Part shown: one piece after another, positions 18,801 through 30,629 of the stretch | Layout of the letters: every line of letters begins with the position of its first letter | Position numbering within the stretch: the first letter of the stretch is position 1 | Source of the DNA: Chrysophaeum taylorii | Taxonomy: Eukaryota > Sar > Pelagophyceae > Pelagomonadales > Pelagomonadaceae | NCBI GenBank assembly: GCA_029834535.1 | Contig: JAQMWT010000415.1 | Coordinates: 62,001 to 126,000, forward strand | DNA: 64,000 nt | Reading direction: 5' to 3' | Position numbers and translations under genes: made by a program | Notes under the pieces: generated by a model | Database searches by the model: none | What the model saw: the letters and a program-made list of their open reading frames with translations, nothing else | What the model was told of the DNA's origin: nothing

Positions 18801-21800
18801 CGAGATGCCGCGCCTCGGCGCGGTCCGCGAGGAGCACGAGCTGGCTCGCGACCTTCTCCAAAGCTGTTGCCGTGGATTTCTGGCCGTTCTTTGCCGCGGC
18901 AGCCCGGCACTCGGCGGCGACGGCGCGCAGGTTCTTCGTCTCCTCGGAGATCGCGGTCCAGTCGCGAGGGGCCTCGAGGGCCGCGCGGCACCGCGAGAGC
19001 GCGGAGGCCCCTCGAACAAGCGCCACCGTTGTCTCCGATTGTGGGTGTGGTGGTAGCTCGAACGGCCCTATCGGATCGGTCGCGCCACGCCGGAATGCGC
19101 CGCCGGCGTCGACGAAGGCGCCGCCAGACCGGAGAATTGCGGCGACCGCTTCCGTCCGCACGACGACGTCGCAGGCTTCGCGCCGCAGCAGCGACGCCTC
19201 AACCCGGTCCTCGTTGTCCAAAAACTCCTCGAAATCTTTCGGAGGACCAGAAAAGACGGGATCGCGCCAGGCGTTGGCCGCCGCCTTGGTCCGTAGAGTC
19301 TCGAGGGTCTCGGCGGCGGCGATGGCGCGGGCCGTCGCGCGGGACGCGAGTCCCGCCGCCTCGCGCGCCGCCTCGAGAAATAATGCCGCCGCCTTTTCCC
19401 CCTTTGGCCGCGGCGGCGGCGCCGCGAGGTTTCCGACGTCGCCCGAGAAGCGGCCGCCCGATCTCCGCCAGGAATGGAGGGCTCGGCGCGCGTCGTACTC
19501 GGCGCCCTCGGCCCGCGCGATGCGCTTCTCGCGCCGCGCAACGGCCAGCGCCTCCTCGTACCGCGGCGGGTACGGCCAGGCTCGAGTATCCGCAAACTCT
19601 TCTTCTTCTTCTTCTTCTTCTCGGACGTCGAGCGCGGCGCGATCGTCGGACCCGAGGGCGCAGCGTATTCGCGACACAGAAATCGCCGCCGCCAAGAGCC
19701 TGCGAGCGAGTAGTCTCGAGACAAAAGAAACCGTACCTCCTCGTCGCGATCGAGGTGGTGAGCTTCTTCTTGACCTCGTCGTCGTCGTGTTCTTCTTCTT
19801 CGAGGAAACGCGCGTGCTCGGCATAGAGGTCGAGGCAGTCTTTGGGGAGAGGGGCGCGATTGCCCGGCTCCTCCGACTCGTCGGGTAGTGGTCTGATGAG
19901 AATAATTTCGCAGAGACGGGTGGCGAGCGACGCGTCTGTGGCGAGAAGCGTTGACTCGGAGATTTCGGTTCGTCGGAGGTCGGTCACAAGCTCGGCCTTC
20001 TTGCATTCGTTTATCGCGCGGTCCCAGTCGGCGTCGCGGAGCGCGCGCCGGAGACTCCCCATCGCGAAAACTGCCTCGAGGCGCCTCTCGACCCCGCGAT
20101 ACTTCCGGACCGTCGCGTCGACGCAGCGCGAGGCGCGGTCCATTCTCGCCTCGACGGCCTCCCATTCGTCCTCCGACAGGGAGTAGGCCGTTTTTTTTTC
20201 CCCCGGTAAACCCAAGTCGGCGTCTCTCAAAAATCTCTCGAAATTCAGGGAGGCCTTCGCGGCAGCAACCTCCTCGACGATAACGTCCGGCGGTTTTGGG
20301 GACACGACCGGCTGCGCGAGGTAAGATTCGAGACGTTCGATAGCTTCAATCGCGGCTTCGTCGTCCTTCGCGAAGAGCGCGTCTCTTAGAGAAACGACCA
20401 ACCGCGCGCCGCGCTCGAGGGCGTAGGCGGTTGGGTCGAGGGCGCGCCGCGGCAACGTGGCCGCGTCGCGCCTATCGTCGGCGCGAACGAGGGCCGCCCG
20501 CACGGCCGACGCGTCCTTCCGGCACGCCGGCGTCTCGTCGTTATCAACATCGAGTGGTTCGGTGCCCAGGGCTTCGAGAAGATCGGCCCTGACCTCGTCG
20601 TCGGCCGCGAGACGCAGCAGGAGGCCGACCTCGTCGCCGGCCGCCGGCGCTTTCTCGGCGACGCGAGGTTCTGCCTCCAACAGCTTCAAGACGGCCGCGC
20701 GCGCTCCGCGAAAGTCGTAGCACCGCGAGGCCTCGCGGGCCTCGGCGATGCGCTTGGCGGCCGTCGAGTACACAATCGCCTCGGCGCTCTGGTAGTTGTT
20801 GTTGGAAGAACCATTCTTATTATTATTAATATGGAGGAGGAGCGCCTCGGCGCACCACGTGTCTGGGGCCCGGGCCCGGTCGAAAAAAGCGCGCGGATCC
20901 GCGAGGAGTTCGTCGCTCGTCGTAGTCACGTCGACGCGCAAGAACTTTTTTTCCAAGGGCGCGACCACGGTCTCGAGCTCGGCGACTAACGCGTCCTTCA
21001 GGTCCCGCGCTCGTTTCTCGACCTCGGCGCAAAACGCGTCGTCGACGACCCCGCGAGATCGCAAATTAACGAGAAGCGCGAGTCCCTCGGCGATATCAAC
21101 CCCCGACTTGAAAGCGGTTCCCCTCTCGAGAAGCTCCGAGGCGCGGGTCGCGGCCTCGGCGTCGGCCAGCGCCTTTTTCGCGGCAACGATAGCCCTTCGC
21201 AGCCGCTGCGAAGACGGCGCCGTATTTTTTGATAAAACGGTCTCGGCGAGGAAGCCCCACCGCCGCCGCCCCGTACGAGCTGCCGACACCATGCAGCCTT
21301 TCGTGAGGACGACGGCTTCCAAGATCTCGCGGATATTGCCTTTGGCGGCGGCGGCGGTCTCGAGGCGGTCGGCGTCCGCGGTCTCGCCCGCCTCGCGCAC
21401 TCTGGCTTCCCCGAGCCGGTTCGCGACCCACGCGGCCGCGCGCGCCTCGGCCGCCACCAACTTCGCCGCCGCGACGCGCGCCGCCTTGAGCCGCGGACCC
21501 AGCCTCGAGGCCGCTGCTTTGCTCGCGTCCAACGGCAGAAACGTAGCGGCGGTCGCGAGAGCGGCGGTCGCGGCTCGACAGGTCGAAACGAGTCCAGCCA
21601 AGTCGTCGTAGTGCGTCGCGTCGAAACGCCGCGACGCCTCCTTGAGAGCCCGCGCCGCCGAAGACGCCAGGGCGCGCCGCGACCGGGTCTGGAAGATGAG
21701 GACGGCCGCGAGACGCGCGCCCTCGCGCGTCGCCTCGAGCGCGGCCGCCGCTTTTGAGCGAGCGAAGATCCGCGTCTTCCCGACGGCCAGCTGCTCTTCC

Positions 21801-24384
21801 CCGAAATCCGACCTCAGCGCCCGGACGGCCGCGCGGCAAAAGGCACGAGTGTCGCCGTGCTCGAGGTCTAGGAGCAGCCGGAGTCCGTGCCCGTATCGGG
21901 CGGCAAAATCCGGAAACGAGTACCTGAACGGCCAGCCCGACCTCTGGATCGCGACGGTCTCGAAGACGCCCGAATATCGGAGCTGCTCGAGGACGAGCCG
22001 GGAGGTGAAAATATCCCTCACCTTCTCGGCGTTGGGCTTGATGCAACGGACGTAGTGGGCGTCGGTCGCGTCGAGCGTGCCCATCAGCGACGCGAGCTGC
22101 GCTCGAAACTTCTTGCTCGCGCTCGTCTTGTGGGATTTTCGCGGAGACTTTGGTGTCGTCGTGTGCGCCGCCTTCGTTTGCGTCAAAAATGCCTCGTCGG
22201 GGGCTTCCTGGTCAAACCCGAGCAGATTTTGGAACCTGGGGTCGTCCGACGCGTCCAGACACTGCTGCAGGTCCGCGCTCAGCCGGTCGAGATTCTTTTC
22301 CAGAAAGTCGCGAATCTCGTAAGCGACCTCGCCCGCGTAGTGCCGGATTCCAAACCGGTCGCTCCGTCGACGCTTGTCGAGGGTGAACCGCGGGTGCGAC
22401 GCGTACGTCTTCGCGAGCTTTCCGTGCCATCCCTTGTCCGACCCGCGGGGCAGACGCCCCTCCTCGTCCAAAGCGTCGAAGATGCCCGCGACGCACTTCA
22501 GGATGTCGCCGTTGTCGTCGTACCGCACGTCCGCGCACGACACGCCTTCCTCGGCGTACAACAGCATCTCGGTCTCGAATATGTCCCGGTTGAACTTGTT
22601 CTGGAGGTGCTCGTTGGCCAAATTTATGCACAGCTGCTCGAAAGAATTGCACTTGAATATCTCGAACCCAAAGACATCCAGAATTCCGATCTCCCGCGCT
22701 CCTGGTGTTGGTGTTGGTGTTGTTTTTGTTGTTGTTGCACTACCATCATCATCATCATTTGTTTGGTGGTGGTGTTGGTGGTCCATCTCGCGGTTCACGC
22801 GCCACACCAGCACGTCGAAAAGCTTGGCGTGGATGGCTTTGGCCAACGCGTCCCGCCCGTCCGACGCTTCCGTCGCCGTCAGTCCTTTCGTCGCGAACGA
22901 CCGCCGCCGCCCCGAACCGATCTTGCGCGACACGAGCGCCAGCGACAATATTGCCGGATCCACGCGCAACGCCGAGGCGGCGGGACCGGCCCGGCCCTCC
23001 GCGATCCGACACGTCTCCTCGTCTTGCGTCGCCTCGAACTCGATGTTCCCGAGGTGCAACACGGCCGCCACGACCCCGAACACGAACGCCGTCTCTTCCG
23101 AAGAAAACTTCAACTTGGCCACCGCCGACGCCACCTCCCGCAGCTCGTCGCCGTCGTCCTTCCCGGGAATCTTCGAGCACCCGGAGATGGCGAGGTAAGA
23201 GAACGTGGAGCACACGTCTGAGTCGCCCTTTCTCCACCACGGCTCGCACACGCGCGACGCCGTTTCGCCGACAAACCTTCTCAACTCTTCTTCCTCGAAA
23301 GCCGCGAGCGTCTGGTAGTAGCAGTGGTAGTTCCGCTCCCCGGCCGACTGGAACACCACCCGCGACTTTTCGAGGAGGTAGTTCGTGTTTGCGGCCCCCA
23401 ATATCTGCCCGACCTCGCTCACCTTGATCTCCGTATACTTGCCAAAACGACTCGAGTTGTTGTTCCGGAGCGTTTTCGCGTTCCCAAACGACTCGAGGAT
23501 CGGCGACGCCGACAGGATCATCTCGGGCGTGATCGCGTGCGACGACTCGCCCACCACCAACTTGGAAGTCCCCGCGAGAAGTTGGAGCACAAGCTTGGCC
23601 GTTTCCGTCTTGCCTTTGTTCGAACGCGTCACGAGACACTAACTAAGTAAGCGCCGCCGGCGGCGGCGGCGGCGGAATCCACGACAACACACGATACGGC
23701 GGTTTATTCTTACAAAGCCGCGCAACAATCATCGCGATGATGATGATGATGATCATCGCAACAACAACGAGGTTTCCTTGACCTTTCGCGAGTCGAGTCC
23801 ACCTCTCGATTCCTCTTGAGATCACGCACCCCGCACCACCACACAATAACAGTGTTGTGAACAAAAACAAAACGAGACGTACCCGCCCCCGACTCGCCCG
23901 ATATGATCAACGACTGCGGCTTGGCGGCCCTCAACGCAAACCGGCACGCGCGCGCCGCGACGTCCCAGACGTGCGGCATCGCCTCGTCTTCCTCCTTCCC
24001 CAACGCGCGCCGCGCGAAGGTCTCCAGCGTCGCGCCGTCGTACAGCCGAGCGATTTGCTTGAACGGGTTCAGCGCGACCAACACCGTGCCCATCGCCGTG
24101 TAGATCTCGTCCTGTCCGAACCGCGCGCGCAGCACGTGCAGGATGGTGGCGGGGTTCACCTCGGCCAGCATCGCCAGGTCCGCGGTTACGCTCTGCGCGC
24201 GCGCGATGTCCCGCACAACGAAGCATTCGTCGCCGGCGGCGGTGACGACGCTCTCGCCCACCTCCACGCGCAGCTTGCTCTCACCCTCGACGCTTGCCAC
24301 ACGCCCGATCTCGTACACGGCCTCCGACGATGCCACCGGCACCCAGCACGTGTCCCCCGCTTTTAGTTGGGCGGCGCCCGCCAT
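15865..24384 (-). CDS. giant unconventional myosin heavy chain, three exons
   Basis: Exons 24384-23883, 23613-19737 and 19699-15865 join to 8214 nt, exactly 2737 codons plus stop. An SH3-like N-terminus (CWVPVASSEAVYEIGRV) leads into a full motor: P-loop GESGAGKTETA (~163-173), switch I NNNSSRFGKY (~218), switch II DVFGFEIF (~476), the actin-site segment AHYVRCIKPN and GVFETVAIQRSGWPFR. One weak IQ-like segment (FQTRSRRAL) follows. The remaining ~1900 residues are Ala/Arg/Glu-rich and probably helical, with no domain I can name. Intron 1 (269 bp, GTACGT...AAAG) splits the P-loop codon region; intron 2 (37 bp, GTACGG...GCAG) is needed to stay open. ATG 24384 is the first in frame. Role: actin-based transport or organelle movement; class undetermined. 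Confidence 0.92.
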
Positions 24385-24477
24385 CGCGTCTTGACTGACA
24401 CCAGATCGATTTTGTGGCAATCAATCAATCACCCTTGCCCCGTCCGTCGACCCTGTGGCAAGTTGAGGGCCGAACAC

Positions 24478-24504: not shown

Positions 24505-24769
24505 TTTTTTTGCGGCTTTCTCAGCCGAACTACTACGCCAGTGCGGGGATTGAGGATATCTGGTTGACAGCTGATCCCGTTTCATGGCTCCAAGAGATGT
24601 TCGGCGACGACACGTGATCAGGCCATTCGGGGCCAGCGTCGCGCTCTTCCCCTGTTGACTCGGTGCATGCTGCTGCTGCTGCCCTCAGCTTGTTTTCACC
24701 CCCCGCCGCCCCGAAAAGGGGTAAGTCTTCTATTCTTTGCTCTTCCGGCGCGGCCGTCGCGCAAGAGGG

Positions 24770-27700
24770 ATGCGGCGGCCGTCGTCGTCCTTTCTAGTGA
24801 CCAGCCTGCGGCTGAGCGACGACGCTTTGGTGGCGCTCAACTTGCGGATGCAGGCCCTCGGGCCGGACCTAACTAGGATCCGCCGGATCCGCAACGTGAC
24901 GTGGCTGCATAACTTGCTGTGGACGGGCGAATTCGATGGGCTGGAAGCGTCGGGCGAGGTCATGGGCGCCGTGGACGGGCCGGCGACGGTGGTCAAGGCG
25001 TACGCAACACACGGCTCGGAATCGCTTTTGCAGCGTGACGACGATTGGTCGGCGGCGTTGGTCGACTGGCGGCCTCCGGGAAGGGTCGTGGTCGGCGCCC
25101 GCTCGCGTCCGATGTGGTTCGCGGCGCGGGACGGCGAGTGGGCCGCCGCGAGCTGCGCGTCCGCAATCCCCGTTTCGCTCAGACCAGCGTGGAGCGTCGA
25201 TGGCGTTGTTGTCGCCTCGCTCGACGGTCGGCGGCTCACGACCTACGAGTCTCGGTGGACCGAGAGCGACAACGACAACATTAGTGCTGCGGCGGCGTTC
25301 TACTGTGTTTCGGAGATGTCGTCGTGCACGGAGTCGGCGTTGCTGGCGTCCTCGTCAGCTTTTCTTCTAGATGCGCCAGAGCGCGAGGCGCACGACGTCC
25401 ACGCGCGCGACGTCCGCAGCAGAGGCAGCCTCGCGTGCGGCGTCAACGCGACTCGCGACTCGTGCGACGACTGGACGCGATTGGTGGTCGAGGGTCTCGA
25501 CACCGCTGCGGCCCGTGCCGTCGAGACGGGGGCGGGGTGCCGGCCGTTTAGAGCCTTTGCGAACTTCTTCAAGGGCCAGGCGGCCCCGGCGCTCCGGGGC
25601 CTCGCGCGTTGCCCTGGCGCGTACACCCCGATCAGGCGCGCGCTCGCTCTCGCGCGCGACGAGCACCCTAGCCAGGCGTGGCGCGACCTCGCGACCTACG
25701 CCTTGGCTGCCGTTGCGCACGCCGGCGCGGGGGGTTGGGATCTGCGGGTCTTCCCGAACAAGCCGCCCACGCTCGCCGGCGACGAGGACCAGTCCTGGCT
25801 CGGGAGCCTTTTCTCGACGACTCGCGACGACTCGGAGGATTGGGCGGGTGAACAACCACCACCACCGCACAGCCAAGTCGTCCGCGTGGTCGCGACCGCC
25901 TCTGCATGGCGACCGGAACTCGAGAGGCTGCGCGTCTCGTGCCGCGCGGCCAACCTGAGCCTGGACGTGCTCGGCCTCGACCACCTCGAGCTCGCGGTCC
26001 AAGGCTACGCGCACGATTGGAAGCTGCGACTACTGGCCAAATACTTGGCGGACGTCGAGGACGCGGACGGCGTGTTGGTAGTGGACGCCTACGACGTCCT
26101 ATTGGCGCCGTCGGCGCGCGAGCGCTTTATCGCCGCGCGAAGAGACTTCGTCCTTTTCTCGTCCGAGGTCGACTGTTGGCCGGACGCTGCCGTCTGCCGT
26201 GACTTCCCCCACTTCGGGTCGCTAAATTCTGGGGCCTTCTTTGGGTCTGCCGCCGCACTCCGCCGGATGCTCGCCACGATAGAAGCCAAGTACGGCGAGA
26301 TGGCGCTTTGCGGTAATGACGATCAACGCGTCTACCAGCGATTCGCCGTCGAGCATCCCGGTGCCGTAGAGCTCGATCGCGAGCTTTTCCAGTCCATGCA
26401 CGGCTACAACTGGACGGTCCACTTCGACGACGGGGGTAATCCACGTCTCGAAGGATCTCTCCTCCGAGACTTTGAAGTGATCGTTCGGCCAGCAGTCCTC
26501 CACTTCAACTCGCACGACGGGAAGGCCATGTACGAAGCGTACTCGGCCGCGATCGGTCTTCCAATTTTCGTCGTGAGCCTGGGTCGTCGTGCGACAGAGC
26601 GGCGCGAGCACATCTTCCGCGCGTTGGCTGGCGTCGGGCTGCCGCGCGTCGTCGATGCCGTCGACGGCGACGACCTCGTGCGCAGGACCACTAGTACGGA
26701 CAACCTCGTCGCGACGTGGCAGTCTAAGAGCGATAGGAGGACTGTCGCGCGCGCCTTCGACTGGACGGACCCGCTCTTAGGAGGAGCGGCGATGCCCGAA
26801 CGCCTCACGAAGCGGATCCTCGCGTGTGCCGTCTCGCACCTCCGCGCCGCAGCCGCCGCATTGCGCGCCGACAGATGGCCGGCGCTCGTCGTCGAGGACG
26901 ACGTCGACGCGACTCGCCTCTCGGCGGACGTCTTTACGTCGCACGTGCCGAAAGATGACCCCAACTGGACCGTAGTCCAGCTCTCATATCTCATCGATGA
27001 CCCGTGGCTCGCCGGCGACCTCGTCGCACGCCGCTGTGCGCGCGGCGAAACGCTCGTCCTCCGGGATTGCTGCGCGCCGGCGAACCGCTTGGTCGGCGCG
27101 CAGGCCTATCTCCTCAGCCGCCGCGGCGCGATGCTGCTCGTCGACACGTTCGTCCGCAACAATAATAATTTTTTCGATCTCACCGCGCGTAGCACGCTCA
27201 ACTTCGCCGCCGACTACCTCGTATACAACCTTGACGGCGTCTACGTCGCCACTCGCCCGGTCGTCGTCGAAGACGAAAGCATCGAGCCGCGGTCCACGAT
27301 CGGCCAAGGTCACGTCGCCCTCGCCCAGAGCACGCGAGCCTTGACGCGCAACGTTCTCGACGCACCCTGCGACGCTGGCGTCATCGCCGCCGCGTCCTTG
27401 GTCCTCCAACACGAAGAAGACGCGAGGCGCGACACCAACAGACGAGACCGGGGTCAACTCGTCGTCTTGATCGGCGACTTCCTCGTCCGAACGCCGCGGG
27501 GAATTCAGAAGGACCTCGCGTCGCTCTTGCCAACTATCCTCCGAGCGCTCGAGGTCACCGATCTAAAGGTCCGACGCCTTCTTGCCCAGGCGCTCGCGCA
27601 GTGCGACGCGTCGTGCGCGCCGTTCCCTTGGCAAAAAGCGGTCGTCTTCCCTTCACCCATGAGCTGCTTCGTCGTCGTCGTCGACGACGATCCGATGGTC

Positions 27701-28024
27701 TGCGCTCGACTCGGGCTCCTTCGAGGGGGTCCTGAATGCGCCAGAGTGCGCGACGCCCTCGCGCAGAACGGATCGACGTTTGTGCCTTGTGGCGAAGACC
27801 TCTGGTGCGCGCCTCTCCACCGGCGCGCCGCCCAAAGTGCGGCGAATGCCCCCCGCGTACCCACGATTATTGATGATGATGATGCCGGGGAGGACAACAA
27901 CCCGAGACTTCGCGCCGCATCATTTTTGAGCGCCCTCGCGGCGCATTCGACGGCCCCTCGCGCAGCCCTCTTTGTGGCCATTGCCAACGCCTGGAAGAAG
28001 AAGAAGGGTTATGAATTAGAGTGA
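24770..28024 (+). CDS. double glycosyltransferase: PLOD-type GT plus GT25
   Basis: 1084 residues from the first in-frame ATG. Residues ~1-365 are unassigned. Residues ~370-590 match the glycosyltransferase domain of lysyl hydroxylases (PLOD/LH3): VVDAYDVLLAPS (metal-binding D..D), FPHFGSLNSGAFFGSA, NDDQRVYQRF and VLHFNSHDG. Residues ~596-840 match family GT25 (COLGALT-like): IFVVSLGRRATERREHI, VDAVDGDDL, LACAVSHLRA and ALVVEDDVD. In animals GT25 enzymes add Gal and the LH3 domain adds Glc to hydroxylysine, so one protein here could build a disaccharide; no hydroxylase domain is present. The C-terminal ~240 residues are unassigned. No clear signal peptide starts at this ATG. A hydrophobic ATG reading (24667, MLLLLPSACF) lies upstream but I could not splice it in frame. 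Confidence 0.85.
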   Translation: MRRPSSSFLVTSLRLSDDALVALNLRMQALGPDLTRIRRIRNVTWLHNLLWTGEFDGLEASGEVMGAVDGPATVVKAYATHGSESLLQRDDDWSAALVDWRPPGRVVVGARSRPMWFAARDGEWAAASCASAIPVSLRPAWSVDGVVVASLDGRRLTTYESRWTESDNDNISAAAAFYCVSEMSSCTESALLASSSAFLLDAPEREAHDVHARDVRSRGSLACGVNATRDSCDDWTRLVVEGLDTAAARAVETGAGCRPFRAFANFFKGQAAPALRGLARCPGAYTPIRRALALARDEHPSQAWRDLATYALAAVAHAGAGGWDLRVFPNKPPTLAGDEDQSWLGSLFSTTRDDSEDWAGEQPPPPHSQVVRVVATASAWRPELERLRVSCRAANLSLDVLGLDHLELAVQGYAHDWKLRLLAKYLADVEDADGVLVVDAYDVLLAPSARERFIAARRDFVLFSSEVDCWPDAAVCRDFPHFGSLNSGAFFGSAAALRRMLATIEAKYGEMALCGNDDQRVYQRFAVEHPGAVELDRELFQSMHGYNWTVHFDDGGNPRLEGSLLRDFEVIVRPAVLHFNSHDGKAMYEAYSAAIGLPIFVVSLGRRATERREHIFRALAGVGLPRVVDAVDGDDLVRRTTSTDNLVATWQSKSDRRTVARAFDWTDPLLGGAAMPERLTKRILACAVSHLRAAAAALRADRWPALVVEDDVDATRLSADVFTSHVPKDDPNWTVVQLSYLIDDPWLAGDLVARRCARGETLVLRDCCAPANRLVGAQAYLLSRRGAMLLVDTFVRNNNNFFDLTARSTLNFAADYLVYNLDGVYVATRPVVVEDESIEPRSTIGQGHVALAQSTRALTRNVLDAPCDAGVIAAASLVLQHEEDARRDTNRRDRGQLVVLIGDFLVRTPRGIQKDLASLLPTILRALEVTDLKVRRLLAQALAQCDASCAPFPWQKAVVFPSPMSCFVVVVDDDPMVCARLGLLRGGPECARVRDALAQNGSTFVPCGEDLWCAPLHRRAAQSAANAPRVPTIIDDDDAGEDNNPRLRAASFLSALAAHSTAPRAALFVAIANAWKKKKGYELE

Positions 28025-28795: not shown

Positions 28796-29905
28796 CTAGC
28801 GTGTGCGGAGGCGAGGATTGAGGAAGGAGAGGGCGCCGTCGCCAAAGTGGACGGGGCCGTATGGAGTCATGGTCCTGTGGCCGTGGTCGAAGTCCCAGAC
28901 GACGCGCCAACCGCGCGCAAGGAAGAGGCGCTTAATCGGCTTGGTGAGGTTGTGGGTGTCGCGGAGATGTGTCCCAATGTGGACCCGTTTGGTAGTTTTG
29001 GTGAGGAGGTCGATGACGCTCGGGTCGGCCAGAATGTCGTACTCGGCGCGCTGGACGTCCATGTCGACGATGTCGACGACCGGGGGGAAATCGTAGATTC
29101 GGAAGAGGGTGTGAAGCGAGACCGGCTGGCGGCCCCTCGATGGGTCGAGAGCGCGGCCGACGCCCCAGTCCTCCCCGTAGATGCGCAAGTTGGCGTCGGC
29201 GCGTTCGCGCCGAAACGGCGTGCTCGCGTCGGTGGCCGCGACGAAGCCCACGTGAAAGTGGAGGCGTTGGGGGTCGAGGTCGTTGAGCATCGAGAGGTTC
29301 CGGGCCGTATCGACGAGGGTGTCGAGGACGTCGACGAGGAGGTACCGGTAGTCGGGGGTTCGGTGTTTCTGGAGAAGTGCCTTGTGCGCGGCGAGCGTCC
29401 AGTGGCCGTAACCCGCTCCAAGTTCGACCGCCGCGAAGGGCCGCCCGCCGGGATACTCTCTCACGGCGTCGAGGATGTCGGCATATTCGAAATACTCCTC
29501 GGCCACCACGGGCCAGACCGTCTGCACGATGCCGACGCGTTTGCGCCCGAGCGCTCGGAAGAGGCCGCACTGCCGAGTGCGAATGGCGTGCGCCTCGACC
29601 TGAAAGCTGTACGCTGCGTTGCAGTACAGCCGGTACGGGATCACGACGCCCAGGAAGTCAACGACGAGCATGTCGCGGGTCCGTGCTCGGCCGCTCCAGG
29701 GCTCGAAGGCGAGGAACGCGGGGTGATGTTTGGGGGGGATCGGGAAAAACGGCGCGACAGCATTGATCGGCCGCAGCGCCCCGGCCGGGGACCGGCTCCC
29801 GCACCTCAACGATAGATAGTTCGAGCTGTACCACCACACGCACGACCGGGACACGGTGGTGGTGGACAACAACAGCAACAAAACACGTCCGAACAATAAT
29901 GTCAT
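28796..29905 (-). CDS. FkbM-like SAM-dependent methyltransferase, secretory
   Basis: 369 residues. The N-terminus (MTLLFGRVLLLLLSTTTVSR) is a signal peptide or anchor. The SAM site is AAVELGAGYGHWTLA (~155-170) and the later VDIVDMDVQRAEYDIL (~280) matches the FkbM signature (DIDVxGxExxxL). This family O-methylates sugars or other small hydroxyl groups, so a lumenal glycan substrate is plausible but unproven. It ends 63 bp from the convergent hypothetical ORF and starts 88 bp after the stop of BCAS2 on the same strand. Confidence 0.75.
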   Translation of the reverse strand: MTLLFGRVLLLLLSTTTVSRSCVWWYSSNYLSLRCGSRSPAGALRPINAVAPFFPIPPKHHPAFLAFEPWSGRARTRDMLVVDFLGVVIPYRLYCNAAYSFQVEAHAIRTRQCGLFRALGRKRVGIVQTVWPVVAEEYFEYADILDAVREYPGGRPFAAVELGAGYGHWTLAAHKALLQKHRTPDYRYLLVDVLDTLVDTARNLSMLNDLDPQRLHFHVGFVAATDASTPFRRERADANLRIYGEDWGVGRALDPSRGRQPVSLHTLFRIYDFPPVVDIVDMDVQRAEYDILADPSVIDLLTKTTKRVHIGTHLRDTHNLTKPIKRLFLARGWRVVWDFDHGHRTMTPYGPVHFGDGALSFLNPRLRTR

Positions 29906-29993: not shown

Positions 29994-30629
29994 TTAGGTG
30001 CGGTCCCGCCCCCGGAGGCGCGCTATTGCGCGCTCGAGGTCGAGATGCTTGCGGACGAGGCGGTCGTAGTCGCGGTCGCAGCGCAAGATCTCGGGGGCGA
30101 TCGCCTCCTGGTCGGCCTTGCGCTTGAGGTTGATCGTCTCAGCCCTTCGCTCGGTCGCAGAAGCGAGGGCCTCGAGTTGGCGGTGGAGGTTCTCGAGGTC
30201 CTGGACGTGGCGCTTCCACGTGGCCTCTGCGAAGGCCTCAGCGAGCTCGAGGTTGACGACGCGGTTCGCCTGATGTTCGAGCTGCGCCCAGCAGTTGTGG
30301 AGCGCGCGGGGCCACTCGGTGCTCCTGTCGCGCGGAGGGTCGCAGTTGTACCGTTCGATCGAGAGCGGGGCGGGGGCCTCGCCGCGGTCGATGCGCTCGA
30401 GTTCGGCCAGTACCATCGGCCCGAACTGCGGGGGGCGCGAAGGGGGTAGCGCGGGCGCCGCCGCGCTCCCCATTTCCGCCTCGATCAGCTTGTTGACGAC
30501 GCCGCCCGTCGCCGGGGGCTCGACGTAGGCCATCGCGTCCATCAACGCCGCCTTCTCCCGCAGCGACGCGGACCATACGTCGTCGTCGTCGTCGTCTTTG
30601 GTGGTTTTGGGGACAATCATCGTCGTCAT
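29994..30629 (-). CDS. BCAS2: pre-mRNA-splicing factor SPF27/BCAS2
   Basis: 211 residues, the usual length of the family (human BCAS2 is about 225). The conserved C-terminal half is clear: LSIERYNC, then WPRALHNCWAQLEHQANRVVNLEL (read in two parts), WKRHVQDLENLHRQLEAL and DYDRLVRKHLDLERAIARL, corresponding to the AQLEHQAVRIENLEL and LVSKNYEIERTI blocks of BCAS2. It is a coiled-coil subunit of the Prp19/NineTeen complex that activates the spliceosome in the nucleus. The ATG follows a short acidic N-terminus (DDDDDD). It is divergent from the DEAH helicase gene with 78 bp between start codons. Confidence 0.88.
   Translation of the reverse strand: MTTMIVPKTTKDDDDDDVWSASLREKAALMDAMAYVEPPATGGVVNKLIEAEMGSAAAPALPPSRPPQFGPMVLAELERIDRGEAPAPLSIERYNCDPPRDRSTEWPRALHNCWAQLEHQANRVVNLELAEAFAEATWKRHVQDLENLHRQLEALASATERRAETINLKRKADQEAIAPEILRCDRDYDRLVRKHLDLERAIARLRGRDRT

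Follow-up and report, generated by a model that had tools for sequence, protein, structure and literature searches.

Animals build Glc-Gal-hydroxylysine with two separate enzymes, LH3 and COLGALT1. The human proteins form one complex, and in that report the N-terminal GT-A domain of COLGALT1 is described as catalytically dormant and its GT25 domain as active (PMC13382579). The window, that is, the whole stretch of 64,000 nt that was analyzed and to whose positions all coordinates refer, encodes an algal protein in which a PLOD/LH3-type glycosyltransferase (GT) domain and a GT25 domain lie on one chain. Such a fusion bears on whether the Glc-Gal-hydroxylysine glycan exists beyond animals and giant viruses, and, as a naturally occurring chain that holds transferases of both types, it is a compact system for testing whether the pair hands its intermediate on. 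The features of the locus are given below, with residues counted from position 24737 (protein P0001).

24667..24720, + strand: putative first exon, MLLLLPSACFHPPPPRKG, running up to a GTAAG donor (sequence inspection, hand reading)
24725..28024, + strand: fusion protein in a single, uninterrupted open frame, 1095 aa numbered from 24737
24770, + strand: first ATG of the fusion frame (aa 12)
25874..26515, + strand: PLOD/LH3-type glycosyltransferase domain (aa 380-593)
25988..25990, + strand: Glu418, in a column of alignment A8 where 17 of 18 viral rows carry Trp; the column lies in a variable loop
26084..26095, + strand: D450-A-Y-D453, metal site (DXXD) in the PLOD half; both Asp invariant in A8
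26318..26326, + strand: D528-D529-Q530, matching the Asp190/Asp191 loop of LH3; invariant in A8
26567..27274, + strand: GT25 domain (aa 611-846)
26894..26902, + strand: E720-D721-D722, GT25 metal motif; in alignment A3 the E and the final D never vary and the middle D hardly does

Joining the candidate first exon to the AG that ends at 24853 would preserve the frame and give the protein a short hydrophobic start. The GC content at the three codon positions of the fusion frame (0.685/0.508/0.785) resembles that of the adjacent frame, which is myosin-like by eye (0.657/0.508/0.770), and is similar across the N-terminal, PLOD, GT25 and C-terminal parts of the fusion. The N-terminal ~370 and C-terminal ~230 residues gave nothing above cut-off, and the NCBIfam search of the fusion protein returned matches far below cut-off and no others. 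The lysyl hydroxylase (LH), which an earlier note made from the sequence alone had reported missing, is indeed absent from the algal chain, as judged by a phage LH profile (0 matches) and by Pfam (0 oxygenase matches). On the opposite strand, myosin-like reading frames (by eye) lie just upstream (19199-24420), and downstream are a frame with a hydrophobic start that appears FkbM-type methyltransferase-like by eye and has no Pfam match (28796-29905) and a member of the BCAS2 family (29994-30629, 123 bits). The genome searched comprises 70.8 Mb in 697 contigs, and the light-harvesting protein family matches 84 places in it, bearing out the algal host. It contains 6 GT_PLOD and 11 GT25 places, and the two families occur together on the contig of the window alone.

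Both family assignments made in the earlier note, and the order of the two domains within one open frame, were upheld by profile searches. The Pfam models GT_PLOD and Glyco_transf_25 (PF01755) match aa 380-591 at 60.7 bits (cut-off 27) and aa 609-734 at 29.4 bits (cut-off 24), respectively; since the latter score is modest, profiles were built from the other PLOD and GT25 copies of the genome, leaving out the window, with 500 shuffled copies of the protein as control. These profiles gave 102.6 bits over aa 380-593 (best of 500 shuffles, 6.4) and 62.9 bits over aa 611-846 (best of 500 shuffles, 11.1), so that both domains are complete and are separated by 17 residues. Of the structure model made for both domains, only the PLOD half can be used, the GT25 half being mostly under pLDDT 50, and in a fold search the predicted GT-A fold of the PLOD half was closest to LH3 and R699; COLGALT1 is absent from the 50 rows listed, except for entry 8zgc, which is present by way of its LH3 chain. 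Against PDB sequences, the PLOD profile retrieved LH3 and R699, plus one unrelated entry at an E value of 0.88, and no COLGALT1 at E values up to 1, which argues that the first half of the algal protein is not the N-terminal domain of COLGALT1.

The two domains were aligned apart (A7 and A8), a joint alignment of both phage domains with the two-domain stretch of the algal protein (A6) having been dropped because phage GT25 pieces fell on the PLOD half. In line with the earlier note, metal motifs are kept in both halves: DAYD in the PLOD half, the LH3 counterpart of which is Asp112/Asp115, and EDD in the GT25 half, equivalent to the Glu435-Asp436-Asp437 core of COLGALT1; the Asp190/Asp191 loop of LH3, from the same account as the DXXD counterpart, is matched by DDQ (PMC6082870 for LH3 and PMC13382579 for COLGALT1). 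Trp481 and His589 are also kept in the PLOD half (A8). The column of Glu418 is taken to be that of the UDP-stacking Trp75 of LH3. Subject to the alignment of this variable loop, the algal PLOD half has Glu in place of the UDP-stacking Trp expected of a galactosylhydroxylysyl glucosyltransferase, and on this point the reading of the earlier note is not supported. Mutation of Trp75 is reported to nearly abolish LH3 activity (PMC6082870). By eye, the corresponding region in the other PLOD copies of the genome has Trp in three (L015, L017 and L019), Tyr in L016 and Phe in L018.

The GT25 half is divergent in sequence, being the weakest among the 11 GT25 matches of the genome (27.9 bits in the genome-wide search). 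COLGALT1 was not found by phmmer from this half alone, and the COLGALT-like phage GT25 profile gives it 8.0 bits; phrog_2835 matches aa 621-860 with an E value of 1.3e-5. On the other hand, a profile of all 11 GT25 domains of the genome, the window included, finds COLGALT1 (E value of 7e-28) and R655 (2.1e-22) in the PDB, so membership of the family is well founded despite the divergence of the copy in the window. A weak model of the GT25 half alone (mean pLDDT 57.7) has only GT25 proteins in its ten best fold rows, the top one being a bacterial beta-1,4-galactosyltransferase tied with COLGALT1; the other 15 rows of the alignment behind this model are phage GT25 sequences, and the fold matches may lean that way. 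At a Trp shared in the paralog alignment A3, from which COLGALT1 is absent, the window's protein reads N743-W744-T745, where by eye 7 of 10 paralogs have the final Asp and 4 of 10 have E/D-x-D. This site may correspond to the D461-W-D463 motif of GLT25D1; D461-x-D463 is described as essential and as located in the C-terminal domain (PMC3244457), unlike in PMC13382579, which puts it in the N-terminal domain. Glu418 and N743-W744-T745 are the principal findings that count against taking the protein to be simply LH3 plus COLGALT1. Taken together, the missing phmmer match, the low score with the phage profile and the tie in the fold search do not support the specific sugars that the earlier note had named.

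The earlier note had also proposed a search for the fusion in other algae and giant viruses; in following PLOD relatives, the same pair of domains was found in marine phages, in the other order. Synechococcus phages and a Roseobacter phage carry GT25, PLOD GT and LH-like 2OG domains on one chain, for example, in Synechococcus phage S-8S53 (L040:2359-4221) and Roseobacter phage CRP-6 (L042:2470-4236). GT25 and PLOD GT occur together in 74 ORFs of 73 loci (L040-L113), with one fusion counted twice, L040 and L045 being one record; near copies are frequent among the phage contigs (65 PLOD domains, 63 from fusions and 2 stand-alone, reduce to 20 at <80% identity). The LH-like part is present in 69 of the 74, always in the order GT25-PLOD-LH; of the remaining five, four are truncated at a locus end and one is a second gene in L043. 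This second, adjacent GT25+PLOD gene without LH lies at L043:3763-4944 in marine virus AG-345-L05. A scan with another phage fusion added 39 ORFs with the triple fusion, most of them on contigs that the earlier scans had also returned. The order PLOD-then-GT25 was found in no ORF of at least 100 aa in the viral loci examined; no relative was confirmed by tblastn in viral-contig scans with the window's two-domain stretch and with A4, or in two genome-contig scans (A4 and L039), and a tblastn search of phages with the whole algal protein found nothing.

The three parts of the S-8S53 fusion match, from start to end, COLGALT1 (E value of 1.8e-20), LH3 (1.4e-34) and the mimivirus LH 6ax6 (2.9e-9) in the PDB; the phage 2OG domain stays below its own Pfam cut-off. 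PHROG 61, named only "2OG-Fe(II) oxygenase," covers nearly all of this fusion, and in the records examined the phage fusions are annotated as 2OG oxygenase or hypothetical. Runs of at least 8 Gly-X-Y triplets with Lys at Y were found upstream of 35 of the 36 full fusions having at least 3 kb of upstream sequence and downstream of none of the 43 having at least 3 kb downstream, and in the annotated records of S-8S53 and CRP-6 they sit in genes named tail fibre. The phage fusion has the look of an enzyme with all the activities needed to glycosylate hydroxylysine on the fibre of the phage itself. As the probable acceptor, with its Gly-X-Lys repeats, is encoded just upstream, and in a tail fibre gene where annotated, the question of whether this glycan extends beyond animals and giant viruses is directly testable in phages.

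The algal fusion looks to have arisen independently of the phage one, judging from the different domain order, from the lack of a hydroxylase and from the PLOD half, which scores 102.6 bits with the profile of its own genome's copies versus 54.5 bits with the phage PLOD profile. A pair that has apparently been joined more than once argues for the two domains working together; its recurrence in phages in the other order, along with the human LH3-COLGALT1 complex (PMC13382579), is the best argument for such cooperation. Our preferred, still tentative reading is that the algal protein is a bifunctional glycosyltransferase carrying out two steps on one protein acceptor, to which we assign a probability of about 40%. 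It would work as follows: (i) the protein would enter the secretory pathway, where the two GT-A modules, both presumed active, would act successively on the same protein acceptor; (ii) the GT25 half would probably add the first sugar, a galactose-like one by analogy with the animal pathway; (iii) the PLOD half would add the second, glucose-like by the same analogy; and (iv) a short side chain would be made without release of the intermediate. In favor of this reading are the two complete domains, the single frame and the intact metal motifs; against it are Glu418, the weakest GT25 of the genome, N743-W744-T745 and the existence of other GT chimeras in the genome. The single-enzyme route to a Glc-Gal disaccharide suggested by the earlier note stands in part, by analogy: marine phages join the same families to an LH-like domain next to Lys-bearing Gly-X-Y repeats, the genome's GT25 profile leads to COLGALT1 and R655, and the human enzymes associate.

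The GT chimeras just mentioned raise the possibility that the pairing reflects module shuffling, with both GT domains serving to make a polysaccharide of the wall or surface, or some other glycan on a glycoprotein, and with no connection to hydroxylysine. One chimera joins GT41 to GT25, both over cut-off (L025:4303-7092, - strand), and another has a GT-like part (phrog_13126, E value of 5.5e-9), a PLOD GT and sub-cut-off TPR matches (L016:3975-7619, - strand). GT25 is also, by its Pfam name, a bacterial LPS family, and a bacterial beta-1,4-galactosyltransferase is tied with COLGALT1 at the top of the fold search made with the weak GT25 model. Moreover, a second PLOD scan, together with L038 and L039, gave 50 viral PLOD ORFs (L130-L177 and L038, L039), of which 46 carry neither GT25 nor LH and 4 are triple fusions; in L039, the PLOD GT shares its chain with a methyltransferase. 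Members of the PLOD GT family are not confined to modifying collagen, and a PLOD GT by itself does not imply collagen. However, chance shuffling does not predict the recurrence of this very pair with an LH-like domain in phages, and we regard this explanation as rather unlikely.

A broader proposal, which we hold to be unlikely when all its parts are taken jointly, is that GT25 and PLOD GT form a module that recurs in evolution, builds a peptide-linked disaccharide in two steps and was fused separately in the alga and in phages; the phage polypeptide would perform lysine hydroxylation, galactosylation and glucosylation on its own collagen-like tail fibres, and the algal one would act on hydroxylysine of a non-collagen wall protein.

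It is improbable that the algal protein works specifically on hydroxylysine and makes Glc-Gal-Hyl on a collagen-like protein of the alga, one of the acceptors that the earlier note allowed for. Several lines of evidence fit this explanation: (i) the animal pathway uses these two families; (ii) the phage analogue has Lys-bearing Gly-X-Y repeats upstream; (iii) diatom cell walls contain trimethylated hydroxylysine (PMC4557024); and (iv) on C466 the genome encodes a 2OG oxygenase that has distant similarity to the LH domain of the phages (E value of 5.3e-6), C684 giving a weaker match (0.003). The C466 oxygenase, however, resembles by eye the generic prolyl-hydroxylase type, and no collagen-like acceptor with Lys was seen in the runs read. 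There are 53 matches to the Pfam collagen model in the algal genome; at the 15 that were read (14 overlapping loci on 7 contigs), the runs have no Lys at X or Y and are simple repeats such as GQT, GLS, GRL, GVV and GTR, and three consecutive Gly-X-Lys triplets occur 4 times in the genome versus 2 for the reversed control pattern. The lost Trp (Glu in the column assigned to Trp75), a divergent GT25 half that is on its own not close to COLGALT1, and the lack of a visible acceptor all argue against hydroxylysine on collagen. The target of the algal fusion is probably not ordinary collagen; hydroxylysine supplied by an oxygenase on another chain may be the acceptor but is not favored over other acceptors.

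A catalytic GT25 half with the PLOD half as scaffold would accord with Glu418 and with the dormant N-terminal domain described for COLGALT1 (PMC13382579), but it is equally improbable, since the PLOD half retains DXXD, Trp481, DDQ and His589, none of which a domain in decay would need, and since the PLOD profile finds LH3 and R699 and, at E values up to 1, not COLGALT1, which would set this half apart from the COLGALT1 N-terminal domain.

To conclude, the bifunctional algal glycosyltransferase that we favor can be compared with several known systems. Human LH3/PLOD3 consists of a PLOD GT, an accessory GT-A domain and a lysyl hydroxylase; in the alga, GT25 replaces the accessory domain, the hydroxylase is absent, and Glu is found in the Trp75 column. 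Human COLGALT1/GLT25D1 consists of a GT-A scaffold followed by GT25, whereas the first domain of the algal protein is PLOD-type and its GT25 half is divergent. In Mimivirus, R699 and R655 are two separate genes, whereas the alga has one chain; Mimivirus L230 (glycosyltransferase-lysyl hydroxylase) likewise joins a GLT25D1-like glycosyltransferase to another step of the pathway, but that description (PMC9614988) has no PLOD GT, and the alga has no hydroxylase. GT25 and PLOD GT on one chain are also found in the marine phage protein of PHROG 61 (S-8S53, S-CAM9, S-PRM1 and CRP-6, with membership demonstrated for S-8S53 only). The phage order is GT25, PLOD GT and LH-like oxygenase, with a COLGALT1-like GT25 part (S-8S53) and the fusion gene following tail-fibre genes, whereas in the algal chain the PLOD GT comes before GT25 and the hydroxylase is missing. 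Among the open-access literature matches listed, whose titles and abstract beginnings were covered, there is no description of a PLOD-GT/GT25 fusion or of the phage triple fusion. Set beside these systems, the algal chain unites known families in a domain arrangement, PLOD-GT25, that is new.
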